Assembly (NCBI RefSeq): GCF_017068395.1
Contig: NZ_CP070615.1
Coordinates: 1-64,000, forward strand
DNA: 64,000 nucleotides
Direction of reading: 5' to 3'
From: Rhodococcus pseudokoreensis
Lineage (GTDB): Bacteria > Actinomycetota > Actinomycetes > Mycobacteriales > Mycobacteriaceae
Shown here one piece after another: positions 1,828-41,213 of this stretch. The notes under the pieces were generated by a model, which saw nothing but the letters and a program-made list of their open reading frames with translations, made no database searches and had not been told where the DNA came from. Position 1 is the first letter of the stretch. The number at the start of each line of letters is the position of its first letter. The translations under genes were made by a program, and so were the position numbers.

Positions 1828-2562
1828 CTACCGTTCCAGGTCGAAGCTGTTAATTTGAAAGAACTCCCACCCACCGACGTAGTCCTGCGCTCGCGTGTTC
1901 ATCCAGTCGGTCATTCCCTTGTCGCCACCGCGTTCATACGCACTCCACATCGCCTCGACCTGGTCGGGCGTCAGCGTCAAGGTGATCAGCCGATCGCGGG
2001 CATACTCCCGCGGTCCCGGACCCTGAACAGCATCGATCCTGATCTTGCCGCCGTATTTGGCCAGCGCCTTACCTTGTTTGCTGCTTCGCATAGTCGACAT
2101 CGCCGCGCGACGTGCGCTCTGCGTAGATGGCGCGCGTTTGGCCTTGTGGGCTAGGGCTTTGAGGGTCTCGGCTCGTGGTTTGGCGATTCGCTGCCGACCT
2201 TCCGGGGCCAGCCAGCGTTCCACGGTGCGTCGAGAGACCCCAAGATCGCGTGCTGCGGCGGCAGTGTTGATCTCGCTCCGTTTGCCGGGCCCGTAAGCGG
2301 CAAGCAGCTGAGCCTTGAGGTTGGCGGATCCAGGTCGACCGGAAGTGTCGGCGCCTCGGCGTCCGGTCAGCTTGCCGAAGAATTCCGATTGTTGCTTTCC
2401 GCGCTCAGCGCGCAGCACTTCACGCACCGCTGTCTGGGTAACACGAAGTTCCTTGGCGGCTCTTGCGACATTGATCTGGTTGTCCACCACAGAGCCGTAG
2501 TCCGCCAGACTGTCGGCGATCCGCGAATAGGCAGTGCGGTTGAGGGGTTTCCGTGCCATCAC
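1828..2562 (-). CDS. Tpg-like terminal-protein homologue
   Basis: A 244-residue protein with two helix-turn-helix-like stretches (about residues 30-53 and 98-118, the second containing VSRRTVERW) and a C-terminal block with GKIRIDAV, ARDRLITLTLTPDQVEAM, AYERGG and WEFFQINSFDLE. The order of HTH, an ID-type strand, an LTVALPP-like segment and an acidic FTDIEYLE-like end recalls Tpg, the protein covalently attached to telomeres of linear Streptomyces replicons, as I remember that family. Tpg is about 185 residues, so this copy carries an N-terminal extension. The start overlaps the stop of the Tap-like gene, the order seen for tap-tpg in Streptomyces. The homology is remote; an ordinary HTH regulator is the alternative. 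Confidence 0.5.
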   Translation of the reverse strand: MMARKPLNRTAYSRIADSLADYGSVVDNQINVARAAKELRVTQTAVREVLRAERGKQQSEFFGKLTGRRGADTSGRPGSANLKAQLLAAYGPGKRSEINTAAAARDLGVSRRTVERWLAPEGRQRIAKPRAETLKALAHKAKRAPSTQSARRAAMSTMRSSKQGKALAKYGGKIRIDAVQGPGPREYARDRLITLTLTPDQVEAMWSAYERGGDKGMTDWMNTRAQDYVGGWEFFQINSFDLER

Positions 2563-5500
2563 GAGTCACTTCCAGCGCTGATGTTGGCGGACATCCACTC
2601 AGCCGGTGCGATCAGATCCGACTTGCCCCGGTAGCCCTTGCTGTCCAGGTACTGCTGATGTTCGGCGAGGAGTGCGGATCCTTCCGGCTTGTACTGGCCG
2701 AAACCACGTCCGAATTGCTTCGGTCCTCCAGGCCACGCCCGCTGGGGATCGGATTCATCCGACACGTAGAGCACGGTGTCCTTGGTGACTGCGACGGGCC
2801 ATTGTCCGGTGTCTTCGCCGATCTGAGCTATCCGGTACATGATGTTGGCCCGCGACTTGGCGACGATGTGGTGGTGACGCTCTGGTGAATATCCTGGGCG
2901 TCCTGCCAAGTGCAGATCGGAATTGAGAATGCCGATCGTGTGCGTATAGATGACTTTGTTCTGTTCGCGAGCCAACTGCGCGTCGAGATCGTCCTTGACG
3001 TCCAAGGCGGTGCGCGCATCCCGGATCCGTTCGTACCACGGGACGAGGACCCGTCCGTGGTCAGGCCACACGTAGGCCTCCAGAATCTCTGGTTCGTACC
3101 CGAGACTGCTGGCGCGTTCGAGGGTGGGTGTAGTCACCCACTTTGGCTCAGAAATTGACAAGCCCATCGGGTTGAGTGGATTCGGGAGCCGCCAGTCCGC
3201 GCAGTCGGGGATCTCCACGAGCCAGTACCCGGGGAGCTTGCGATCGAACGGTAGTCCGTTCGAATGATGCACAGGTTCGCCGATTGGAAGTTCGAGGCCG
3301 GCGATTCCTGCCGCGTACGACCCGCCGCGGTCGAAGGCATGGACGTAACGGCACTTCGCTTCGTCGTCAGACAAGGTCCGTGACCAGTCGATATCCGCTT
3401 CGAAGATCTGGAACTTCTTGGCGAACTCGGCATCGGAGGATGCGAATACGCGCTTCCACTCCTTCGGCCGAGCGGCGATCATCAGGTCGATGCCCGTCGA
3501 TGCCGGGCTCACAGCCCAGGGGAAACGCAGAGCACCTGCAAGCAGTGACAGGCGCCGCGCCAGAACGGCGGGTGCCGGCGAGTCACCAAGAATGGGCATC
3601 TCCTTGGGGTCTTGGCTCATGCCGGAGACCAGTGCCACCCAGACACCACGCGTCTCGCCCTTCCACACGCGGGTCCAAGTGCCGAGCCGGTCCCCCTCCT
3701 TGCCGCCGAGCTGCCAGCCCTCGGAGAGAGCCTCTGTGACGAACGGAGATTGTGCGGTCAGTTCCTTGATCCGGTCGTTTCGGTTGCGCTTGCCCAAACT
3801 GCTGGTGTCGATTCCCACGTGCTGCGCCATCGCGTCGGTGATCCAGATCTGCCCAGGCACCGACCATTTGTCTGACGTCCACGTGCCGAGGTTCAACGTC
3901 GCTACGAGTTCCGCGACATCGCCGACATGGGTGATCGGCGCGGCAAGGTCGTGACGGGTGCCATCGGGTAGCCATGCGCCATCGACGTCGAGTACTGCCG
4001 CGGGTGCGGTGAAGGTGGTCGGTGCTTCTCCTGCTGCAGGATTCGGCGCCGGGGTTGTCGTGGTCGGCTGCTGCGTGGTCTCCGCCGTCGCGACGATGGC
4101 CGGCGTTGCTGCAGCAGTGTCAGGAGACGTCGTTTCGACGGGAGCCGACTCCAGCTCGTCCACAACCATTGGCGAATCCTGTCCGACTGTGTCGCCGGTT
4201 GCTGCAGCTGCAGATCGGGTGGCGGCGGTGCTCTGCCACCAGCAGGGAAGGTGCATCACCAAGCCGTCGATCTGCCATCCGGCGTCCTCGCCGCCGCACA
4301 GGGCGCAGGTGGAAACCGGTGAAATCTGCACTCCATCAGCGAAATGCCCCTCGGCATCGGTCTCGATAGCCATCTCAGGCTCCTGTTCGGAATGAGAGCT
4401 GGTCAGGCTCATGATTTCGTTGGACGAATCACCCGAAGCTACGCCGGGCGCTGGACTGTTCAGATCGGCGAGCCAACCGTCGAACAGAGCCGGACCGCTG
4501 GGTACATCAGGCGTGGACGAGTCGCTGGAATCGCCGCCGGGTGTCGGGTCACTTGATCCTGCATCGCTGGTTACTTGGTCTTCCGGATCATCGCTACCGA
4601 GTAACTTGTGTAGCCGCAGTGCAACCATGCGCTGCCTGCGGTTTTCGCACTTGACCATCCGCTGCACCGTGTACCGCGGCATCCGGCCTTTCCGTTCCTC
4701 CGCGATCAGCACGCCCTCGTCATAGAGAGCCCTCAAGGCGGTACCACGATCGATCTGCAAGGTATCGGTCATCGTCTGACCAGTGGCCTTCAACACCTGT
4801 TCGAGGGCCATCGGGTCCAACAAGACTTGTGGTTGACCATCGCACGGCCGCGGGTTAGCGACGACATATCCCAACCGAACGCCTCGACCTTCCGCACGCC
4901 ATCGAGGGGTGCCGTCGGATGTTTCACCCACCACACTGCGCCGCCATCCAAGACATGCAGCCATCGACCAATCCGCTGGAGCTTGCCCCGTGTCGACGTC
5001 TTCCACGTAGGCGTGACCATTTCTCAGTGCGTGTACCAACAACTCCCGTACTCGCGCACCGGTCCGCATGGGCAGATCTGGGTCAGTCGCCGCAGCAGCG
5101 GCATCAGACAAGCCCATCGTGACCAGGTCCCCGACCTGCGCGACTTCGTTCTCTGTTAACGCTCCGACATCAACAAGGAAACGTGACATCGCATGCCAGC
5201 CCGCCCACAGAGACCCCAAAGCGTCTGCCTGACGAACACTTTCACCACTCGTGCGCAAACGCTCGCTATACCGCTCACCTTCGGCAAACGCCTCAGCGCG
5301 GACACTATCCAACCGAGGACATAACCACTGCAGGTACGTGGCCATCAACAAGGCACGGCCATGACGGGAATGCGCAGTATCGAGTTCCTTCAAAACATCC
5401 AGTTCGATTTCCCGCGCCTGCAACGGCACCACGAGCATCCGCTGAGCTGCAGATCCTGGCCGCGGCATGATCTCGGAGGTAACCAACGCAGACGCGCGTG

Positions 5501-7937
5501 GCGGGGTTCCGTCCAGAACACCGAGACCATCACGTGTGCTTCTCGAGCGTTGCTCACCGTTGTGCACCATGCGAGCGAACTCTTCGAGCGCCTTCTGCGC
5601 AGTCCCGAAATCTCGAGTTGGTGCGACATCGTCCGCCCAGTACAGAGCGTCTTTTGCGGCGTTAAGCTTGATACGCAATGCATTCAATGTGTCGCCGTTG
5701 CCCGACATCGATGTCGCCGGTCGCCGGCGATCCCATTTCTCTCCCCAGTGGTGCATCGCCAATGACGCGAGTGATGTCTTGTAGCTGTTAGGCGATCCGA
5801 CCAACGTAAGAACCCACGGGGTCGGACCCAATGCGGACCTAAATACCTGCCCAAGTAGAGCGGCCGAAACCCGCGTCGGGGTGCGTTCGAGCATCGAGCC
5901 GGAATGAAGAAGGAATGCTTCTCGGATCCTTACTGGGTCGGGCGTCGGTGCGGGAAGGTCATACATCTTCAGGGGGCCGGTCAGCAGAACGGGGGCTACC
6001 CGTCCGCCGTTCTCGTCGATGGCTCCCCCAGCATGAACGAAGAACCACTTTCCCTGATCATCGCGGCGCCACCCGGTGGAGCGGTAACGCACCACCCGTT
6101 GGATTTCGCGCCCACCTGCGCCCTTGAGTGCATCTCGCAGCTTCGCCACACCGCTGGGGCGAGAGTCGTACGCAGGCGGACCTGGCAAGGTATCGACCCA
6201 GCCGCAATCCCGGTACTCCTTCGCCGGGATCCGAATCCGCAGAAACTCTCGGCTCTCCGGATGGGTGTAGCCGATAACCACTGCGGTGAGTTCTTGAGGT
6301 GCGGCGGGGTTGACTTCACTCTGACCGGCCATCGCCGCTCGGCCCATCAACTCCGGCTCGTCGACGTCAATACCCGCCTCGGCAATTTCGAGATACTCCA
6401 TCTCAACGATCCGGGCATCGAGGTCCAGTACGAGTTTCGCCTGTTGATCACCGCTCTTGGTCGTGACGATTTCGACCAAGTTCCCGTCAATGATCCGATA
6501 CACCGGAGCGATAACATTTCGCCCCCGGATCGTGTTCAGCGGCGTAACGAGGCTTTCCGAGCCAGACCGGACCGACTGTGAATCAACTGGGCTGAGCGAC
6601 TCCTGAACCGCACCCGGTACGGGCTCAAGCTCGGGATCTTGCAGAATCGGCGGAATGGGAACTCGCGCGACATCGTGTGCCGCTCGCGCTGCAACACGCG
6701 CAGCACGCCATGCGGTCATGGCATTCTCGACCGCTTCTCCCGCCCAATCGGTGCCTTCAGCCGCGGCCTGCTGTCGAACTTTGTCCAGAAGTTCAGTCAG
6801 ATCTTCGAAACGTCGCTCCGATTCGAGCGCCCAACGTTGTGCGCGTCGGAACTCTTCGTCTCCGTCCCGCCCATCTGCACGATCAGCTCTGGCGGTCGCC
6901 TCTGCCAGCGCAAGTTCGATTAGTGCTTGCTTCTCGATTACGTCGGCAGCAAAGCCGTGGGCAGCGACCTCCCCAGGCCGAACAGGGATCAGACCACCCC
7001 ACCTCGAGTCGGTCAACCATTGACCGCCATCGACGTGGTCAGTGAAATCAGATTTAGGTGCCGCCGGTGCGGACAGCAAGAGCTGGACCTGGGCACCACT
7101 GCCACCCAATAGAGATGCGAGTTCGATACCCCGCTTCCATCCGACGGAGTCGCGATCAAGCACTACGCGAACCTCAGCGCCTTCGAAAAGGTCAGCACAC
7201 GAGAGAGGGAAGTTCAGTCCGCCTTGAGCATTGGTCGTGGCAACCAGTCCAAGCGACTCGGCTGTCTCGACATCCTTCTCCCCCTCGAGTAACCACACAG
7301 GCGAATGGCTCGAGATTGCCGACAGCAGTTCCGGCAGTCGATACAAGACCGGTTCAAAACCCTCCGGCTTACGCTTGCGCCGGGTCCCTGCGGCATCCAC
7401 GAAAACCTGTCGGAACTGCTTGTGCCGGCCAGCTTCACAGCTCGTGCATTCCTCTCGGATCACCTCCTGCACCAAGGCACCGTCGGCTGATACGTACGGG
7501 TAGACCTTGACCCGATCCCACCGGTGTTGCGCGTCCGGTGTTACGTCTGGGAACGCGATTCGGGCGGGCAGTCGTCCTCCCTTCGGCCTACGCCGCCCAG
7601 CACCACGTTGGTGCGGAGATCGGCCTACGCGTGTGAGCGCGTCGCGACCAAACAGCGGTTCGTCGAAGAGATCGGTCATCGACAACCCAAGGCCGTCGGC
7701 GATCTCCGAGACGGGAGCTTCACAGCCGTGGCAGTGAAGCAGCACCATTCCTCCCCGATGCCCATCGACCCAGGTCACTGACATCGACGCGTGACGGTCG
7801 CCATGTATTGGGCACCGTGCCATCAGTTGGGTAGAGCCGCGTTCGGTCACCCCGCCATTGCGTTCGGCAGCAGCACGAACCCGGTCGAATGACGACATCC
7901 GGCCGTTCTCAATAGCTCCAGCAGTGATAGCAGTCAC
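2559..7937 (-). CDS. Primase-helicase with a C-terminal Tap-like domain
   Basis: 1792 residues, the largest gene here. A CHC2-type zinc finger lies at about 42-72 (CPIH ... CHGC). A TOPRIM domain at about 213-290 has the acidic motifs LLEGEKD and VVLDRDS. A DUF927-like ATPase/helicase at about 540-930 has Walker A GSPNSYKT near 714-721 and a Walker B-like LYWADD. An acidic Ser/Pro/Thr linker contains another CxxC...HxxC motif (CALCGG ... HLPC). The last 450 or so residues (WVTTPTL, YVWPDHGRVLVPWYERIRDA, YTHTIGIL, WPVAVTKDTVLYVSDESDP) resemble Tap, which with Tpg maintains linear replicon ends in Streptomyces. It is probably the replicon's primase-helicase. The Tap similarity is from memory and is the less certain part. 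Confidence 0.75.
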   Translation of the reverse strand: MTAITAGAIENGRMSSFDRVRAAAERNGGVTERGSTQLMARCPIHGDRHASMSVTWVDGHRGGMVLLHCHGCEAPVSEIADGLGLSMTDLFDEPLFGRDALTRVGRSPHQRGAGRRRPKGGRLPARIAFPDVTPDAQHRWDRVKVYPYVSADGALVQEVIREECTSCEAGRHKQFRQVFVDAAGTRRKRKPEGFEPVLYRLPELLSAISSHSPVWLLEGEKDVETAESLGLVATTNAQGGLNFPLSCADLFEGAEVRVVLDRDSVGWKRGIELASLLGGSGAQVQLLLSAPAAPKSDFTDHVDGGQWLTDSRWGGLIPVRPGEVAAHGFAADVIEKQALIELALAEATARADRADGRDGDEEFRRAQRWALESERRFEDLTELLDKVRQQAAAEGTDWAGEAVENAMTAWRAARVAARAAHDVARVPIPPILQDPELEPVPGAVQESLSPVDSQSVRSGSESLVTPLNTIRGRNVIAPVYRIIDGNLVEIVTTKSGDQQAKLVLDLDARIVEMEYLEIAEAGIDVDEPELMGRAAMAGQSEVNPAAPQELTAVVIGYTHPESREFLRIRIPAKEYRDCGWVDTLPGPPAYDSRPSGVAKLRDALKGAGGREIQRVVRYRSTGWRRDDQGKWFFVHAGGAIDENGGRVAPVLLTGPLKMYDLPAPTPDPVRIREAFLLHSGSMLERTPTRVSAALLGQVFRSALGPTPWVLTLVGSPNSYKTSLASLAMHHWGEKWDRRRPATSMSGNGDTLNALRIKLNAAKDALYWADDVAPTRDFGTAQKALEEFARMVHNGEQRSRSTRDGLGVLDGTPPRASALVTSEIMPRPGSAAQRMLVVPLQAREIELDVLKELDTAHSRHGRALLMATYLQWLCPRLDSVRAEAFAEGERYSERLRTSGESVRQADALGSLWAGWHAMSRFLVDVGALTENEVAQVGDLVTMGLSDAAAAATDPDLPMRTGARVRELLVHALRNGHAYVEDVDTGQAPADWSMAACLGWRRSVVGETSDGTPRWRAEGRGVRLGYVVANPRPCDGQPQVLLDPMALEQVLKATGQTMTDTLQIDRGTALRALYDEGVLIAEERKGRMPRYTVQRMVKCENRRQRMVALRLHKLLGSDDPEDQVTSDAGSSDPTPGGDSSDSSTPDVPSGPALFDGWLADLNSPAPGVASGDSSNEIMSLTSSHSEQEPEMAIETDAEGHFADGVQISPVSTCALCGGEDAGWQIDGLVMHLPCWWQSTAATRSAAAATGDTVGQDSPMVVDELESAPVETTSPDTAAATPAIVATAETTQQPTTTTPAPNPAAGEAPTTFTAPAAVLDVDGAWLPDGTRHDLAAPITHVGDVAELVATLNLGTWTSDKWSVPGQIWITDAMAQHVGIDTSSLGKRNRNDRIKELTAQSPFVTEALSEGWQLGGKEGDRLGTWTRVWKGETRGVWVALVSGMSQDPKEMPILGDSPAPAVLARRLSLLAGALRFPWAVSPASTGIDLMIAARPKEWKRVFASSDAEFAKKFQIFEADIDWSRTLSDDEAKCRYVHAFDRGGSYAAGIAGLELPIGEPVHHSNGLPFDRKLPGYWLVEIPDCADWRLPNPLNPMGLSISEPKWVTTPTLERASSLGYEPEILEAYVWPDHGRVLVPWYERIRDARTALDVKDDLDAQLAREQNKVIYTHTIGILNSDLHLAGRPGYSPERHHHIVAKSRANIMYRIAQIGEDTGQWPVAVTKDTVLYVSDESDPQRAWPGGPKQFGRGFGQYKPEGSALLAEHQQYLDSKGYRGKSDLIAPAEWMSANISAGSDS

Positions 7938-8005
7938 GAAGCCGCCTCAGACACACGCGCCAGGAGATCTGGCAAGCGCGGTGCGGCCCGGGTTAGTATG
8001 GGCAC

Positions 8006-8054
8006 AGGTCCCCTCCAGGACTCGTATTTATGAACAAGGTCCCCTCCAGGACTC
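8006..8054. promoter_or_regulatory. Two 18-bp direct repeats upstream of the primase operon
   Basis: AGGTCCCCTCCAGGACTC occurs at 8006-8023 and again, identical, at 8037-8054, 31 bp apart start to start. The pair sits in the only gap between the primase operon (start 7937) and the small DNA-binding protein gene ending at 8129. Each copy carries an internal GTCC/GGAC dyad. Identical, three-helical-turn-spaced copies suggest operator sites or replication-protein sites. Confidence 0.5.
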
Positions 8055-8077
8055 AGTTCGTAATCAACGGATCGAAG

Positions 8078-8108
8078 GACCCCCGCAGGCCGCCAAGCAG
8101 TGGGGGTC
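8078..8108 (-). terminator. Hairpin terminator after the small RHH-like gene
   Basis: GACCCCC at 8078-8084 pairs with GGGGGTC at 8102-8108 across a 17-base loop. It lies 20 bases after the stop of the gene ending at 8129. The T-run (TTTCG) is on the plus-strand side, so termination could be bidirectional. Confidence 0.45.
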
Positions 8109-8128
8109 TTTCGCTATTTATGGCCAGG

Positions 8129-8386
8129 TCATGCCGAGATTGAAAGTTCATTGTCGGACGAATCGCAGACCGCGTAGCGCTCGTCGTGGGCCCGTAGTTT
8201 TTCCGGGTCCAACTTCTTAAGGATGTAGTCGGGGACATCCAGGTTGTACGCACGGGCCATGACGAGCAGGGCGTAGTCGCCCAGCTCAAGTCCGAGCTCT
8301 TCGGCGCGTGCTTCGTAGAAGCTGTGCTGTTGAAGGGGTGCACGAACTGATATGCACTTGCGCGTTCCCTTGTGTGGCCGTCCCAT
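8129..8386 (-). CDS. Small ribbon-helix-helix-like DNA-binding protein (85 aa)
   Basis: Starts at ATG 8386 (MGRPHKGTRK). A strand-like segment KCISVRAP is followed by two predicted helices (FYEARAEELG and LELGDYALLVMARAY), the layout of Arc/MetJ-type ribbon-helix-helix repressors and of small copy-control or accessory proteins of actinobacterial plasmids. It stands alone between the replication and partition operons, preceded by a 21-codon reading frame and by the conserved promoter-like element at 8486-8527. The duplicated 18-bp sites at 8006-8054, just beyond its 3' end and before the primase operon, would be natural targets. Regulation of replication is an inference. Confidence 0.6.
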   Translation of the reverse strand: MGRPHKGTRKCISVRAPLQQHSFYEARAEELGLELGDYALLVMARAYNLDVPDYILKKLDPEKLRAHDERYAVCDSSDNELSISA

Positions 8387-8395
8387 GCGATGAGC

Positions 8396-8461
8396 CTAAA
8401 CAGAAACTGCTTCGGAAACGTCGAAGGTCGTGTTGTCGGTGTGTCGCCGTTCATCGTGCAT
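8396..8461 (-). CDS. Possible 21-codon leader peptide
   Basis: ATG at 8461 follows a purine-rich GAAGGTGAGGGG ribosome-binding site; the product is MHDERRHTDNTTFDVSEAVSV. It ends 9 bases before the start of the 85-residue DNA-binding protein. Its first codons, ATG CAC, match the first genes behind two other copies of the conserved element (28421 and 48272). Expression is unproven. Confidence 0.3.
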   Translation of the reverse strand: MHDERRHTDNTTFDVSEAVSV

Positions 8462-8485
8462 CCCCTCACCTTCACCAAAAATCCG

Positions 8486-8527
8486 CTTCTGGTTAGAGGA
8501 AGATCCTTCGGCCCAACGCTGTGTGAC
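8486..8527 (-). promoter_or_regulatory. Conserved element copy D: GTCAC-N16-GGATCTTCCTCT
   Basis: On the minus strand GTCAC (8527-8523) is followed after exactly 16 bases by GGATCTTCCTCT and then AGAAG. The same arrangement with the same 16-base gap recurs at 28327, 42048 and 48210. The element points at the 21-codon frame and the 85-residue DNA-binding protein. Spacing and orientation fit a -35/-10 promoter. Confidence 0.6.
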
Positions 8528-8856
8528 AGATGGGAAACAAGATCTTCGTCGCCGCATCATGCCGCGGAGCATGGACTGTTTCACCAAACTCGCCCGACCG
8601 CGGTTTCAGATGAACAACTACCCCTACGTGTGACCTGCGGGGCCAATCGGTGGGGAGTGGGGGGAGTGGGAAGAAATGCCTGATCAAACGGTAAAACCCA
8701 CTCCCCACGGCGGTGGGGAGTGGGGTGGGGAGTGGGGTGGGGAGCGGGTTCAAAGACACCCGAAGTGCCTTCGCGTGCACCACCGATGAGCTGTCGGGAA
8801 TCGACTGAGAGGTAGGCGGCGAGGTTCTACTCCCCCGTCGCCCTACCCCATCGTCA
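8528..8856. other. Gene-free gap with G-rich 12-bp tandem repeats
   Basis: No convincing gene is present. The region holds the parAB terminator with its tandem arms (8697-8748) and a partial extra copy of the same unit, GTGGGGAGTGGG, near 8651-8670. The rest (8528-8640 and 8750-8856) shows no further structure I can support. Confidence 0.5.
8697..8748 (-). terminator. parAB terminator with three tandem copies of its arm
   Basis: CCCACTCCCCAC (8697-8708) and GTGGGGAGTGGG (8713-8724) form a perfect 12-bp stem around GGCG; on the minus strand the hairpin is followed by TTTTACC, a standard intrinsic terminator for the parA operon. The right arm is repeated head-to-tail at 8725-8736 (identical) and 8737-8748 (one change), so the nascent RNA could form alternative hairpins. 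Confidence 0.65.
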
Positions 8857-9597
8857 CTAGCGAGACACCGTCCGAAGATGTAGCGACAAGACACCAGCAA
8901 GAAGCCGGCTCCGGGACTTCGACCCGACCACCTTCACCTGAGCATCAAGCCAGTCCCGCTGAGCCGTCGTGAACCGGAACCACGTCTCAACGGGACCCTT
9001 GACCGCAAATGGCTCCTGATGCACGGGGATCCCGGCCGCGGATCGCCCGGCCACCGGCTGGAACAGGCTACGAAGGCCCGCGATCCCCACAGAATCGAAG
9101 GCCTCGATAACGACATCAGCGTGATCACATCTACGCTCGGCCGCGCGGCTCTGCAGTGCATCACGCGTGGCGCGATCCAGGTAAGCCGTCACGGTCACCT
9201 TCCCAATTTCCGTCGGAGGTTCGACATCATCGTCGGTGACCGGGGTCGGGTCCGGGGCCGGCTCATAAATGGGAGCCTGCTTCTCGGTCGGTGTGGGTGT
9301 GGGTGGTGGGGTTGGTTCTGGCTTACTGACCGGCTCGGAGCGAACGGGCACGGGCACCGTAGAAGTAGGCGCGGGTGATTCGGCCAGAGCTTGTGGCGGC
9401 TCCTGCGCTGCAGGCGCCTTCTCGACAGGCCGCGACTCCTCCGCGGCTGGTTCTACCTCGGTGACCGGGGTAGAGCGCCGCGGCTGGGTGGGGCTGCCAG
9501 CAGTCGGAAGGAGGCCGGCCAAACCCTCCGCTCGGTTACCTTTCGGAGCGAAAGCACTGGCAAGGCTCTTGCGGCGAGGAGTGCTGGTTTCGGTCAT
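8857..9597 (-). CDS. ParB-like centromere-binding partner of ParA
   Basis: A 246-residue protein whose start overlaps the parA stop. The N-terminal half is a Pro/Glu/Thr-rich linker (about residues 30-125). The C-terminal half carries two ribbon-helix-helix-like units: IGKVTVTAYLDRATRDAL with the following helices, and VETWFRFTTAQRDWLDAQV ending in KSRSRLLAGVLSLHL. The protein encoded at 12645 has the same two-unit layout. It is not a classical HTH ParB. By position and fold it is the best candidate for the adaptor that binds the 12-bp repeat array upstream of parA. A hairpin terminator follows it. The function is inferred from context. Confidence 0.6.
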   Translation of the reverse strand: MTETSTPRRKSLASAFAPKGNRAEGLAGLLPTAGSPTQPRRSTPVTEVEPAAEESRPVEKAPAAQEPPQALAESPAPTSTVPVPVRSEPVSKPEPTPPPTPTPTEKQAPIYEPAPDPTPVTDDDVEPPTEIGKVTVTAYLDRATRDALQSRAAERRCDHADVVIEAFDSVGIAGLRSLFQPVAGRSAAGIPVHQEPFAVKGPVETWFRFTTAQRDWLDAQVKVVGSKSRSRLLAGVLSLHLRTVSR

Positions 9598-10562
9598 GCC
9601 GAAGCCACCTCCTCGCTGATGGTCGACAGGCGCACGAGGATTTCGCGTGTCAGTTCTGCGTAGTCCTCGGCCAACCCGGACGCATTGCGCGAAAGTATCT
9701 GATCCGTCGGTTTGGCGCCCTTCTTCAAAGCGGCGAAACGTGCGACTTTGGCGACTTCGGTCTGCTGTTCCAGCTCATGGACCAACAAGCCCTCCCGGCG
9801 GGCATCATAGGCAGTAGATTCCATCGTCCGGATCCGGGATTCGAAGATCGGGGCGGCATCCCCGATCATCTCGTTGACGGATTGACGGATCTTCGCCGTG
9901 AGCTTGGTTGAGCGCGAGCCCACACCGAACAAGCAAATACCTGCCAACTGCAGCCGCGGGTTGACAGCTGGCAGATTACGGTCTGGATCACCATCCCGTG
10001 TCGCCGAGAACTGGCCGGCAATAGTTTCCAACCCGTCGAGGCTTGCGTCGTCCGCCCTGACCGGGATGACCACAGCCTGGACGACCTCCATCAGTGCCTC
10101 CATGATGGTCAAATCACCGGGCGGAGTGTCGAAGATGATCACGTCATAGTTGTGCGCAACCTGCAGGAGCATGGCGCGAACGAGCTGTCCGAGCCGCTTA
10201 CCACCCTGACGCTGCTGCCGGGAAACCATGACGGCCGCCAGGTCGAACATCGCGGGACCACCCGGCACCACGTCGAGATTCTCGCGGCCCCCGACATTGT
10301 GGACGATCGGAGGCGCGGACCCTTGCAGGAGCGCGGTGAACAGTTCAGATCCGTCTCGCTTGTCGTAGCCCAGATCGCGGCACAGGTTCCCCTGGGGGTC
10401 GAAGTCACCGATCAGAACTCGGTATCCGGCGGCGGCAAGGAGTCCGCCGCAGTTGGCGGCACAGCTTGTCTTTCCCACTCCCCCCTTGCCGTTGAAGAAT
10501 CCGAACGACACCGGCAGTTCCTGCTGCTCCGCAGTTGAGGTCTCGACGACATGCATGGACAT
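9594..10562 (-). CDS. parA: ParA-type partition ATPase
   Basis: I start it at ATG 10562 because GGGAG lies 7-8 bases upstream; longer in-frame starts would run into the repeat array. The 322-residue product begins MSMHVVETST and carries the deviant Walker A FFNGKGGVGKTS, a switch I-like DFDPQGNLCRDLGY, and Walker B VIIFDTPPG. ParA ATPases use ATP-dependent nucleoid binding to move plasmid copies apart together with a centromere-binding partner, here probably the overlapping downstream gene. Upstream lies the 12-bp periodic array, which probably contains or adjoins its promoter and would allow autoregulation. Confidence 0.9.
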   Translation of the reverse strand: MSMHVVETSTAEQQELPVSFGFFNGKGGVGKTSCAANCGGLLAAAGYRVLIGDFDPQGNLCRDLGYDKRDGSELFTALLQGSAPPIVHNVGGRENLDVVPGGPAMFDLAAVMVSRQQRQGGKRLGQLVRAMLLQVAHNYDVIIFDTPPGDLTIMEALMEVVQAVVIPVRADDASLDGLETIAGQFSATRDGDPDRNLPAVNPRLQLAGICLFGVGSRSTKLTAKIRQSVNEMIGDAAPIFESRIRTMESTAYDARREGLLVHELEQQTEVAKVARFAALKKGAKPTDQILSRNASGLAEDYAELTREILVRLSTISEEVASA

Positions 10563-10646
10563 GGCAGTTCTCCCATTGGACTTTGGTTGTGACGAGTGGT
10601 TCCCAGTGAAGCTAGCAGGATTCCTGGACAACTTGCTGTATGCCAC

Positions 10647-11407
10647 GCGGGGTGAACCGTAGGTAGATCTGCGTGAGCAAACGCGTGAGATGCGACGGGG
10701 TCAACCGTATGAGGTAAGGCGGGTGGTCAAGCGTGGACTAAAGCGTGATGTCTGACGTGCTTATAGGCATGGCAGACAGCGTGAGAACAAGCGTGAGAAC
10801 AGGCGTGTAGGCCAGTGGGAAAACACGCGGATCTAGCTGCAGGTAGCAACGCGGGTATTCATGCGTGTGAATTCGCCTGGCGACAAGCGGCAACTGCGAC
10901 GGGACATAATGCGGTGGTTAACGCGTGTAATGCGGCATGGATAGCTACGTGACATCATGCGTGAAGATTTGCGTGAAGCCACGCATGGTGTCATGCAGGA
11001 TGCTGAGCGGGACAACCTACGTGGACGTAGGCGTGATTAACCGCGATGGATTGCACGTGATTGCATGCCGGTAACCACACGTGTTGGAGTAAGTGATCAG
11101 ACACGGGAGGCGATGCCGGTACGCGCGCGTGAACTTGACCCTGTCGTCAATGCGGGCAACACCACTGGTTGTAATACGTGAGCAGTTCCGTGCGCCGCTG
11201 CTGGTTCGAGCACGAGGGGGTGAACTGAATCAGATGCGTGATGGGGTGCCGTAATTCGGTGCTAGGCACAGTGCGTGAGAGCACACTGGCGCCCGAGCGG
11301 AAAACTCTGCGGATCGAACGTCGAGTGCGGCACAGGGCAAATGCCTCGTTGGGATGGGTCTACGCGCGTGAACGTATGGGGAAGCCGTTGCGTGAACACA
11401 TGCGTGA
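10647..11407. repeat. 12-bp periodic RCGKG array: candidate centromere or iteron region
   Basis: From 10671 to 11138, cutting the plus strand every 12 bases gives 39 consecutive units that all begin with G or A. 36 of 39 have C second and 35 of 39 have G fifth. The exact core GCGTGA occurs in units 1, 2, 7, 10, 11, 25, 26, 31 and 39. The other six bases of each unit vary freely. The pattern continues to 11407 with one-base slips near 11151 and 11260 and another phase change near 11320-11366, and a weaker unit lies at 10647. There is no gene. Same-orientation, fixed-spacing half-sites beside parA suit cooperative loading of a ribbon-helix-helix protein. Confidence 0.85.
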
Positions 11408-11426
11408 AGAGGTACAGACTTGCGCT

Positions 11427-12134
11427 CTACCTGTACTGATGCGGTGTTCTGCGGGGATCGCCGACGCCGCCGCGCTGGCTTCGTTGGAGGTCTACCCGAT
11501 GACTGAGGCCCGCCACAGTGAAGACGCCGATCGCATCGGCAATGTCCTGAGCTCGACGATGTCCGTCGAGCTCGACAACGAGGTCGATCAAGGTGTCCTC
11601 GAGAATGTTCTCGGCGGCCGTGTACAGGTCCCAGAGTTGCTTGAGCTCCCAGGCCCGGATCAAAGGGTTCGAGAAGTAGAGGCCGTCGACAATCCGTTGA
11701 ACCCGATCCACCTGGGTGTTTGTTCTATCTGCAGGGCTCGACCAGGTCGCGAAGTGAGAGCTGGCCGAACAGTCGTCGACTGTCGAGTCCAGTTCGATGG
11801 CGACAGCGACCCAGGAAGTTGGGCAGATGGACCGACGCGCCTGCCTTGCAGCCTCTCCGAACGCGCGTTGGCAGACTGCGGCGTACTCAGTGGCAGCACG
11901 CCGGCCCAGATTCAGCTCGCGCAGATCCATCAGTGAGGTGAAGTCCTGGCGCCCGTGCGTGAATTCTGTAGCCGCGAGGAGCGCCTCACTGCCACTCCAT
12001 TGAAAGCGAGACTGTCTGTATTGATCGCGGTGCCAGCGCAGATCTTCGATCCACGGACGGCCAAGCTCGAGGCCCTCACCGTTTGGCACCGTCATACGAA
12101 CATGATGACATCGGGCGATAGGTGTGTCATCCAT
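11427..12134 (-). CDS. Hypothetical protein beside the array
   Basis: About 235 residues if started at ATG 12134 (MDDTPIARCHH); other in-frame starts exist at 12209 and 12095, and none has a good ribosome-binding site. I recognise no family. The C-terminal half is helical (RVQRIVDGLYFSNPLIRAWELKQLWDLYTAAENIL), suggesting a soluble all-alpha protein. It ends 20 bases before the 12-bp array, toward parA. A TGGGAC box on its own strand lies just upstream of the start, matching boxes upstream of the divergent gene at 12645, so the two may share regulation. Confidence 0.5.
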   Translation of the reverse strand: MDDTPIARCHHVRMTVPNGEGLELGRPWIEDLRWHRDQYRQSRFQWSGSEALLAATEFTHGRQDFTSLMDLRELNLGRRAATEYAAVCQRAFGEAARQARRSICPTSWVAVAIELDSTVDDCSASSHFATWSSPADRTNTQVDRVQRIVDGLYFSNPLIRAWELKQLWDLYTAAENILEDTLIDLVVELDGHRRAQDIADAIGVFTVAGLSHRVDLQRSQRGGVGDPRRTPHQYR

Positions 12135-12644
12135 AGTTATGCAATCGTCCCAAACGTTTCTAAGGCGTAGCTCTAGCGCACAACACATAGATACCGAGCA
12201 TGAAATCAAAGCATCTAGAAAAACGCGCAGCTAGTGCAACATGTGCCTCCCTGAAGCGTCCAAATAGCATACCAACAGCGTCCCACACTCGATTATTAGT
12301 ACAAGCCGACGTGACTGTCAGTCATCCCATAGCTCTAACAAAACCAATTAAATACAAAACTGGGACGGTTATGGGACGCGTCTGGGATGAGTTTGAGGCC
12401 GATTGCGCTGCGCTAGTCGATACCGCTCATGCGAAGTTGCGCTACTCTCTTCGGCGTATGTCAGTGTTGGTCTATGTTCTTCTTACAACGTCACGTTTAA
12501 CGTTGAAAGCGCGCCCTTCATGCACTGTTGGTCGTATGCACTGTTGGTCGAAGTAGTCCAGGGCGGGCTGTATAAAGCACATCAAGATCATTTGGGTTCG
12601 AGCGAGCGCGCCTCGCTCCCTGTTCAGCATCGGAGTACATCGTC
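12135..12644. promoter_or_regulatory. AT-richer divergent intergenic region with six TGGGAY boxes
   Basis: This gap is visibly richer in A and T than its surroundings, especially 12190-12360. Three direct TGGGAC/T boxes at 12361, 12372 and 12383 have an exact 11-bp period. Three boxes in the opposite direction (GTCCCA at 12147 and 12280, ATCCCA at 12324) face the leftward gene. The arrangement looks like operators for a self-regulating DNA-binding protein, probably the product of 12645, or iterons beside an AT-rich unwinding region. I see no gene in it. Confidence 0.45.
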
Positions 12645-13211
12645 GTGACGCAGGAACATGGTCAACCTCAAGCCACCGGGGGACACCGTCCGTTAGCTTC
12701 GACCTTTCGGTCACCGGCTGCTCGATCGGTCGAACACATCGCATCCCAGTTCATTGAGGGTGGGGAGGATTCGGGAGTTGACGAGCCGTCTCGAGAAGCG
12801 CCACCCGAACGAGGGCCCGTGGTGACGGATCCGGACAGCGGAGGGAAGTCGTCCAGCGTTCGAGTGCCGGCAAAGTGCCACGCGAAACTCGAGCAACTTC
12901 GCGAGCAGACAGGAATGACCAACGGTCAGATCTTCATTGTCGCGATCGAGGCGACGCACGACCGTCTGCCCGAGTTGTTGTATCCCGGCGGCCGAATCGG
13001 GGGAGGGCTATTCGCACCCCGAGGTATTCGCGCCAAAACGTCACGTGACGATTCCGAGACGCAAGTGACATACCGCCTGTTCAAAGCGGACTTCGATGTC
13101 ATCGATCAACTTGTCATCGATCTTGCCGCGAAGTCGCGGTCGCATCTGATCACAGCGGCCCTGACGGGGTACTTCTTCGGGGACGACGAACGCACACAGG
13201 CGGCAGAGTAG
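12645..13211 (+). CDS. Double ribbon-helix-helix-like DNA-binding protein
   Basis: 188 residues from GTG 12645, with GGAG 9 bases upstream. After a disordered N-terminus (about 60 residues), SSSVRVPAKCHAKLEQLREQ begins one RHH-like unit and TQVTYRLFKADFDVIDQLV with AAKSRSHLITAALTGYFF forms a second. This two-unit layout, including the KSRS-L motif, matches the C-terminal half of the ParB-like protein at 8857, so the two look like paralogues. It probably binds the TGGGAY boxes upstream (autoregulation) or another plasmid site. Whether it acts in partition, copy control or transcription is open. Confidence 0.55.
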   Translation: MTQEHGQPQATGGHRPLASTFRSPAARSVEHIASQFIEGGEDSGVDEPSREAPPERGPVVTDPDSGGKSSSVRVPAKCHAKLEQLREQTGMTNGQIFIVAIEATHDRLPELLYPGGRIGGGLFAPRGIRAKTSRDDSETQVTYRLFKADFDVIDQLVIDLAAKSRSHLITAALTGYFFGDDERTQAAE

Positions 13212-13223
13212 CGCCGACGAGCC

Positions 13224-13442
13224 CTACTTCTTGTTCGCGACTACCCAGAGCGCAAGGACAATCATCGGCGCAACAGCGACGGGGACGGCCAGAAGTGAGT
13301 GGACGGTCGTCCCGGGTGCGGCGACACCATCGATCGCACTGACTAGAAGGGCCGCAAGAACCCACAACCCTGCAATATGACGGCCGCGAAGGCGCCGGAA
13401 GATTCCGAGGATTCGCGGTGGGATCTGGAGATCGCGTAGCAT
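13224..13442 (-). CDS. Small two-helix membrane protein (72 aa)
   Basis: An N-terminal basic amphipathic segment (MLRDLQIPPRILGIFRRLRG) precedes two hydrophobic helices, about residues 23-41 (HIAGLWVLAALLVSAI) and 48-68 (HSLLAVPVAVAPMIVLALWVV), ending in NKK. No family is recognised. The start lies 8 bases after the stop of the gene at 13450, so the two are probably one transcript. Its 3' end faces the gene ending at 13211. Confidence 0.5.
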   Translation of the reverse strand: MLRDLQIPPRILGIFRRLRGRHIAGLWVLAALLVSAIDGVAAPGTTVHSLLAVPVAVAPMIVLALWVVANKK

Positions 13443-13449
13443 CTGGCTC

Positions 13450-13962
13450 TCAGTTCGTCATCGGGTCGACACTGGCACTCCGACCCCCAGCTGCGAAATG
13501 TTCGAGCGCGTCGAAGCAAGCGGCGGCCGCCTTTGCCATCTGAGCGGCGCTGTGGCGGGCGTTCCTGACCGAAACGCCCCAGAGGTTGCACGTCTGTTCG
13601 GCAGTGGGTGTGTGAGTCGGTGGTATCCCTAGAGCGCCAGCTGTCAATTGCCTGATATCAGCGCTCTGATACCAGGTGGGGGAGAGGTTGACCTCGGCGA
13701 ACAGTAGCGCATGCTCGTCGGGGTGGAATCCGCCGGCGATGTGCCCCTCCATGCTCCTCGCGAGAGTCCGGAGACCGAGTACCGCAGTTGCGTCCTCTGT
13801 GAGCTCGCTGTGACTCGGAGAGGTGATGTTCCAGTACCTTCCGGTGCTCGTGTCGATGGCAGCGATGTCCCTTACCTGGGGAATACCGTCACCGACTGAC
13901 GTCGTCACGTGTACGACGAACAGATCGCGACCATGGTATTCAAACGGTGAAGGGGGAGCCAT
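13450..13962 (-). CDS. Hypothetical protein (170 aa)
   Basis: I place the start at ATG 13962 (MAPPSPFEYHGRDLFVVHV); the longer upstream reading lacks protein-like composition and overlaps the opposite-strand DUF2510 gene. The product alternates strands and helices (VRDIAAIDTSTGRYWNITS; HALLFAEVNL) and ends in a helix containing AAQMAKAAAACFDALEHF. It has no signal peptide or membrane segment and no recognised family. It is followed closely by the small membrane protein gene at 13442. No clear ribosome-binding site supports the start. Confidence 0.45.
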   Translation of the reverse strand: MAPPSPFEYHGRDLFVVHVTTSVGDGIPQVRDIAAIDTSTGRYWNITSPSHSELTEDATAVLGLRTLARSMEGHIAGGFHPDEHALLFAEVNLSPTWYQSADIRQLTAGALGIPPTHTPTAEQTCNLWGVSVRNARHSAAQMAKAAAACFDALEHFAAGGRSASVDPMTN

Positions 13963-38171: not shown

Positions 38172-38385
38172 CGGGGTGTCCTGACTCAGTGAAGTTGGCG
38201 ACGACTCAGTGAATCTGGCGAGTGCTGCGGTCTATCTGGCGGACGGCTCAGCTGTCAACGGACATTCGTTCCCGCCCACTGGCGGACACGAAACCTGCCC
38301 ATAGGCGGACACGTTTCTGCCCACTGGCGGACATCCGTTTCTGCCCACTGGCGGACACGAAACTGCCCACGGTGTTGTGTTGTGG

Positions 38386-40790: not shown

Positions 40791-41213
40791 GGTGGCCTCT
40801 CCTCGGTGGCTCGCATTCTCGGCGTGGTAGCACCGTCGAGCGAACCCGAGGAGAGGCCCCGATCCGGGGAGGCGATCGGGAAGAAAATCGAACGTGCCGT
40901 ATCAGGCGGACAGACCCGGGTGGGCAGTTTCGTGTCCGCCAGTGGGCAGAAACCCGTGTCCGCCAGTGGGCAGTTTCATGTCCGCCTGTGGGCGTTTTCG
41001 TGTCCGCCTATGGGCAGTTTTTCATGTCCGCCGACACTCAGCGAACCTGGCGAATCCGAGGTGGTCACCCGCGATCGGGAATGAATCGAGGCACCGAGTT
41101 CCATGCTCGCCACGTTCTTTAACTCCGAAGTCGCCGCGGCGACTCAATAGACCTGGCGAACAGCAGGTACGGCCGCTGCGATCTCGCCAGATCCACTGAG
41201 CCAGGACACGGGG

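Follow-up and report, generated by a model that had tools for sequence, protein, structure and literature searches.

What is the function of the degenerate 12-bp register that lies directly upstream of parA in this Rhodococcus pseudokoreensis contig, and which protein reads it? The window (the whole 64 kb stretch of DNA that we analyzed) is the start of a 320,146-base contig (C2) in a genome of 9.87 Mb. In a profile search, we found a weak Tpg-like match at 1828–2562 (E 5e-5) and a 1792-aa Tap-related fusion at 2559–7937 (E 3e-41), both under the curated cut-off, and these matches point to a linear actinobacterial plasmid. The ParA protein shares 99.7% identity with its counterparts on other rhodococcal plasmids, among them the linear plasmid pRHL2 of Rhodococcus jostii RHA1, and some ParA relative is present in 259 of 72,556 plasmid records.

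The first-pass annotation had reported about 60 sites with a few phase slips up to 11407, and its counts for 12-base cuts of the plus strand from 10671 are exact: all 39 units begin with a purine, the second base is C in 36 of them and the fifth is G in 35. When we trained a cyclic 12-state HMM by EM and decoded the units by Viterbi, the register grew to 62 units between 10635 and 11425, arranged as follows:

10635–11425, plus strand: centromere-like array of 62 degenerate units in a 12-bp register (Viterbi, PWM, autocorrelation, and HMM against shuffles and codon controls)
10635–11150, plus strand: 43 units in unbroken register, with no phase slip (Viterbi)
11152–11320, plus strand: a block of 9 units from 11152 and one of 5 from 11261, 14 in total, with a +1 slip before each block (Viterbi)
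11366–11425, plus strand: 5 distal units beyond a 57-bp step (Viterbi)

In the Viterbi path, 58 of the 61 unit spacings are 12 bp; the exceptions are two of 13 bp, following 11139 and 11248, and one of 57 bp, from 11309 to 11366. The unit consensus is rCGtGa followed by six nearly free bases, which reads tCaCGC on the parA strand, and the array spans the interval from the stop of the upstream ORF (11427) to the stretch just before the parA ATG (10562). There is no promoter or terminator consensus within 10450–11600 and no Rfam family at the gathering threshold within 8000–13500.

To quantify the periodicity, we measured the autocorrelation that had been proposed as a check and found that identity at lag 12 within 10647–11407 is 0.395 as compared to approximately 0.265 in 1000 dinucleotide shuffles (z 8.1). 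Identity is 0.396 at lag 24, 0.421 at lag 36 and 0.401 at lag 48, again with shuffles near 0.265; z ranges from 7.9 to 9.8 over the four lags, and 0 of 1000 shuffles is as high. The top four 300-bp windows at lag 12 in the entire 64 kb begin at 10601–10751. The HMM gain at period 12 is 200.9 log units; the highest of five shuffles gives 31.3, and periods 10, 11, 13 and 14 give 17.9 to 53.0. Because 12 is a multiple of 3, which is favored by coding DNA, we controlled for codon periodicity by fitting 60 random 900-bp windows from the same contig at periods 9, 11, 12, 13 and 15; LL12 minus the larger of LL9 and LL15 is 164.5 for the array and at most 9.0 for the control windows (n=60).

The signal is carried by approximately five conserved positions of the twelve (unit PWM 5.7 bits), and approximately 1 in 1000 contig positions scores like the median unit. 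When 15 units are summed in register, the array scores 107, the best position elsewhere scores –17 and the opposite strand of the array scores 57; this matrix scan, which the first-pass annotation had also suggested, covered 320,000 of the 320,146 contig bases and revealed no second array. An ordinary repeat search does miss the array, as had been claimed, with TRF at its lowest score setting giving one 2.5-copy row inside it. The description of the units as half-sites is an interpretation; the dyad symmetry of the core is partial here (self reverse-complement correlation 0.54).

We aligned ten relatives of the same plasmid type (L009, L012, L045, L046, L048, L049, L061, L062, L063 and L064) with the window, giving eight distinct sequences in all as judged by the middle 1 kb. 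Among these close relatives, array identity is 0.62–0.99 as compared to 0.97–1.0 for parA. There are two places in the array where relatives carry indels of whole units in register (+36 or +48 bases at one, +12 or +36 bases at the other). One-base indels occur once each in L046, L049, L061 and L009 and several times in L048 and L064; L012, L045 and L062 have one such indel plus a 10-base loss at the array end, and the L063 array aligns to the window without any. Variable sites number 19, 9, 22, 13 and 11 of 62 at unit columns 1 to 5 and 27 to 36 of 62 at columns 6 to 12, that is, 74 of 310 sites as compared to 222 of 434 (Fisher p 3.6e-14, which is nominal as the sequences are related). Because columns 1–5 vary less than columns 6–12 among relatives, this comparison indicates that the unit core is under selection.

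The genes that flank the array are:

9594–10562, minus strand: parA, encoding a deviant Walker ATPase (KGGVGKT; Pfam AAA_31, E 5.7e-25; PHROG ParA-like, E 2e-39)
8857–9597, minus strand: parB-like gene, 246 aa (ORF, alignment of 21, weak ribbon-helix-helix (RHH) matches, low-confidence AlphaFold2 secondary structure)
11427–12209, minus strand: conserved ORF of uncertain start whose stop abuts the array (41–99% identity in Rhodococcus plasmid loci)
12645–13211, plus strand: second ParB-like protein of similar layout, beyond the upstream ORF (alignment, tblastn)

The parA product also matches CbiA. We prefer the ATG at 10562 as the parA start, as annotated in the near-identical pRHL2; an alternative GTG at 10646 would put the start inside the array. 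Between the parA stop and the parB-like ATG there is a 4-bp overlap (9594–9597). In 18 further loci, an in-frame parB-like start is found between 7 bp ahead of and 13 bp beyond the parA stop, and the predicted protein is 181–268 aa long when the start nearest to the parA stop is picked (the annotated CDS begins 300–380 bp later in 6 of the 18). A script run on ten further loci found a ParB-like ORF in L051, L052, L054 (cut by the contig end), L056 and L057 and found none in L053, L055, L058, L059 and L060.

In an alignment that took in the window, the co-resident contig C1 and 18 plasmid loci, the ParB-like protein opens with a conserved N-terminal motif, followed by a Pro-rich linker whose length varies and, toward the C terminus, by two RHH-like beta-alpha-alpha stretches (residues ~131–168 and ~206–242 of the 246-aa protein). 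At a cut-off of E 1, Pfam RHH_1 matches 4 of the 21 aligned proteins (best E 0.0034). Matches to PDB profiles are weak (E 0.06 to 1.1) and include VapB26, a CopG-family protein, 56B and ParG in the first half and MazE9 twice in the second half; six of the seven best, all with E above 0.05, are to what we take to be RHH proteins. Two AlphaFold2 models (mean pLDDT 46 and 45) show strand-helix-helix twice, and the two RHH-like halves do not match each other (hhalign probability 0.4%). These weak matches and low-confidence models make the two RHH motifs of the protein a tentative, though probable, assignment. It has no Pfam or NCBIfam match at E 0.001, HTH-ParB profiles included, which is absence of evidence by profile. 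A protein that is 99.6% identical is encoded on pRWAY03 beside the same kind of array; the PLSDB gene table, which is incomplete, has no gene at the parB-like place in pRHL2, pRWAY03, pDK2 or the strain 9 plasmid. In pattern-limited scans of IMG/VR, no relative turned up for any of five ParB queries or for the one ParA query, and three phage records carry ParA fragments with approximately 27% identity.

The second ParB-like protein is closer to pAL1-type ParB (28% identity over 165 aa). Its relatives (41–100% identity) are found near parA in L009, L012–L015, L017, L024, L031 and L061–L064, all of which are Rhodococcus, and a tblastn search of stretches with 1.5–5 kb per side also matched L059 and L060. 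In L016, L018, L023, L025 and L051, tblastn finds the 8857–9597 protein and not the 12645–13211 protein; four of these loci have a period-12 array and L023 is without a clear one. In mycobacterial loci, tblastn missed both proteins and is non-discriminating. The ORF at 11427–12209 has no Pfam or NCBIfam match.

How widespread is the register? We fitted 40 loci with a ParA relative at periods 8–15 and counted a locus as passing when period 12 beat every other period by more than 9.0 (D), a control maximum that came from periods 9 and 15 only. Period 12 is present upstream of parA in 33 of the 40 loci, or 27 of 34 without near-duplicates (L012, L045, L046, L048 and L049, which are of the window type, and L050, a near-duplicate of L015). 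The passing loci include plasmids of Rhodococcus, Mycobacteriaceae, Gordonia and Arthrobacter relatives, with weaker signal in Streptomyces and Pseudonocardia, and their arrays are 165 to ~810 bp long; six modest passes with D of 14–23 (L018, L056, L058, L060, L067 and L070) are to be held loosely. We saw no period-12 excess over control in L057 (7.2), L023 (4.4), L020 (2.0), L029 (–1.3) and L055 (–6.2), and the long arrays that a first HMM table had given for L020, L023 and L029 were discounted after the codon control. L068 fails at period 12 and prefers 9 bp, and L027 (the linear plasmid pAL1 of Arthrobacter sp. Rue61a) has a period of 11 bp over 358 bp upstream of parA (~32 units, core GCGC). 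L054, which is outside the 40, has no period-12 excess (27 at 12; 51 at 10 and at 11), and with it included the proportions become 33 of 41 overall and 27 of 35 without near-duplicates. Also outside the 40 are L053 (upstream side too short), L047 (the plasmid of L012), L061–L064 (used in the alignment of relatives), L001, L002 and L009 (duplicates) and L010 and L011 (distant matches).

Arrays are found on plasmids from ~52 kb (pAKP20, with a modest signal) to 1.12 Mb (pRHL1), and in circular mycobacterial, Gordonia and Arthrobacter plasmids the period-12 array is again directly upstream of parA. Across plasmids with otherwise different neighbors in the fetched stretches, the array is linked to parA and not to a replication initiator gene. 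In the window's own genome, none of six remote parA homologues exceeds the control level at period 12 (highest 0.7). On contig C5 of this genome (L007), a 10-bp near-identical repeat array lies 210–468 bp before the start of the parA match, and the protein downstream of this third parA resembles a ParB with a single RHH.

On the parA strand, the core reads tCaCGC in the window type, CaCGC in pREL1, TTCcggCg in pBD2, CX-1, pR09L01 and contig C1, CGCG in mycobacterial plasmids, CGCgt in pFiD188 and TAacTAgttA in a Glutamicibacter plasmid; pRHL1 has another core. In 19 loci that were chosen for their period-12 signal, motif distance tracks how far the ParB-like proteins have diverged in their C-terminal part (Mantel r 0.649, 0 of 5000 permutations); the test was run on ParB alone, and this covariation may come partly from shared descent. 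Motif correlation is 0.83–0.99 in the 21 pairs whose ParB identity is 50% or more and ~0.5 on average in the 145 pairs with less than 35%. Each of five clade PWMs scores best on its own clade. The window PWM scores 44 on the C1 array and 100 on its own (controls –57 and –51), and over both directions the window and C1 arrays cross-score 44–47 as compared to 100 and 88 on themselves, with controls at –44 to –57. We had expected the C1 array and the co-resident C2 array to be cleanly orthogonal, and these cross-scores contradict this; by PWM score, the two are distinct without a clean separation.

Taken together, these sequence comparisons suggest that the array is very probably the cis-acting centromere (parS) of a type-I partition locus with the order array-parA-parB, read by the ParB-like protein encoded at 8857–9597. 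The first-pass annotation had proposed a parA-linked array of closely packed protein sites, and in the sequence tests this proposal is supported by the period, the selection on the core, the in-register turnover of units, the recurrence in 33 of 40 loci and a motif that tracks ParB. It had suggested a binding assay with the 8857–9597 protein and had also named the 12645 protein as a possible binder; with five loci matching only the first of the two by tblastn, the 8857–9597 protein is the better candidate.

Could the register instead be a product of chance, of coding sequence or of simple tandem duplication? The multiple of 3 would be in keeping with this, as would the short duplications and losses (36, 48 and 12 bp) that have occurred; however, no frame is open through the array (all six are closed, with 5–20 stops each), the codon controls lie far below the array, and the core columns are kept while the spacers vary, down to 62% array identity, and we give this explanation practically no credence. 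Iteron plasmids typically have direct-repeat arrays near rep genes, and the units could be replication-origin iterons for an initiator such as the primase/Tap fusion (2559–7937), with a role in copy-number control. This large Tap fusion is ~2.7 kb from the array, although a separate set of 12-bp-spaced GGTGGGGAGTGGG repeats is nearer to it. We find an iteron function very unlikely, as the array lies directly upstream of parA also in the circular plasmids, whose fetched stretches list no telomere-binding gene, and its motif tracks ParB.

It is also improbable, though a shade less so, that the array is bound mainly by the 12645–13211 protein or by both ParB-like proteins together: the layouts of the two proteins are similar and relatives of the second are near parA in Rhodococcus loci, but in the five loci named above tblastn found the first protein and no match to the second. 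Slightly more plausible, and still unlikely, is that the units are an operator array for parA-parB autoregulation only and that the true centromere is elsewhere. The array almost reaches the parA start, and RHH centromere-binding proteins double as repressors, according to a review (PMC5016525); however, 62 units over ~790 bp seems far beyond what an operator needs, and the matrix scan found no second such array on the contig.

If the array is a partition centromere, the 8857–9597 protein would insert an RHH beta-ribbon at the conserved 5–6 bp core of each unit. A single site would be weak (~5 bits), and the array would gain its specificity from dozens of sites being filled cooperatively in one register. 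By arithmetic from 10.5 bp per turn, each 12-bp step would place a site ~51 degrees further round the helix, and a ladder of bound protein would complete a turn every seven units (84 bp, ~eight turns of DNA). With their N-terminal tails, the bound ParB proteins would contact nucleoid-bound ParA-ATP, stimulate hydrolysis, and thereby drive the movement and separation of plasmid copies. Repression of parAB is probably a further effect of this binding, because the array ends 60–75 bp from the parA start codon. We infer binding and oligomer geometry, and also cooperativity, ParA activation by the tail and autoregulation, the last three by analogy with RHH-ParB systems in general (PMC5016525).

How does the locus compare to known partition systems? 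It is like type Ib systems in its deviant Walker-type ParA, its short repeats upstream of parA and its parB directly downstream, but it has many more and weaker sites, a fixed period with a switching core, and a larger ParB. Type Ib ParB proteins are small (about 46–130 aa), and the 246 aa here, like the range in the 18 further loci, exceeds this size. A 2026 survey states that the old Ia/Ib rules have numerous exceptions and that HTH versus RHH is preferred as the subtype (PMC13245405). In a review's description (PMC5016525), the type Ib system of pCXC100 from Leifsonia xyli subsp. cynodontis is likewise on an actinobacterial plasmid and has a direct-repeat-only centromere upstream of the par operon and an RHH centromere-binding protein. 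The delta-omega system of pSM19035 and the ParF-ParG-parH system of TP228 share a Walker ParA, an RHH binder and short sites packed together ahead of the operon (PMC5016525). In contrast to pSM19035, with its heptad repeats (same source), and to TP228, the units here are 12 bp long, ~62 in one orientation and of low information each, and the ParB has 246 aa with probably two RHH motifs.

The parABS system of mycobacteriophage RedRock shares an actinobacterial host and a ParB that recognizes direct repeats (as predicted here), but has two loci with eight copies of an 8-bp motif each (PMC7157519), whereas here there is one locus of ~62 degenerate 12-bp units. The HTH-ParB CTPase system of SCP1 is likewise a ParA-type partition system on a large linear actinobacterial plasmid. 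SCP1 has inverted-repeat parS sites and ParB spreading over ~15–20 kb (PMC13245405), whereas the window has one long array and its parA neighbor has no HTH-ParB profile match.

We tentatively propose a broader design, a grid centromere, as a possibility that we hold with less than even confidence: many actinobacterial plasmids would carry dozens of very weak sites whose identity comes largely from the fixed 12-bp register, with each two-RHH ParB chain perhaps supplying one beta-ribbon to one site, and with core letters that switch on a constant grid. If so, core switching would be a modular route to new incompatibility groups, and very large linear replicons would be served by the ~60 ParB tails on each copy, set at a superhelical pitch of 84 bp, with no need for ParB to spread.

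In the open-access literature covered by our searches, we found no account of such arrays beside these parA genes. A paper on Antarctic Arthrobacter plasmids mentions predicted parS sites in a supplementary table (PMC6305408). For Rhodococcus sp. WAY2, parB is said in PMC7276702 to be only on the chromosome and pRWAY01, with the other replicons inferred to depend on these for maintenance; this statement is at odds with the ParB-like ORF on pRWAY03. The 2026 survey reports that RHH-ParB systems are enriched on plasmids smaller than 50 kb and that only HTH-ParB is found on plasmids larger than 1 Mb, and its RHH queries were pB171 and pSM19035 (PMC13245405), which may miss the ParB of these arrays. 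The WAY2 paper implies that pRHL1 may have a classical parB as well (PMC7276702). The array offers a ready test of how fixed spacing and weak sites make a specific partition complex, and the analysis gives a sequence-only route to centromeres that repeat finders miss.

The window also holds other repeat sets. Four copies of GGTGGGGAGTGGG lie in 8649–8748 (those at 8712, 8724 and 8736 at 12-bp spacing), together with an inverted copy at 8697–8708; this set sits between parB and an 85-aa ORF, is closely similar in pRHL2 and pREL1, and possibly represents iterons or an operator. At 12360–12387, approximately 260 bp upstream of the 12645 ORF, there are two and a half 11-bp repeats of CTGGGACGCGT, a possible operator of the 12645–13211 protein. 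Finally, two arrays of 22/46-bp repeats lie in opposite orientation at 38259–38370 and 40920–41032 and are perhaps part of a mobile element.
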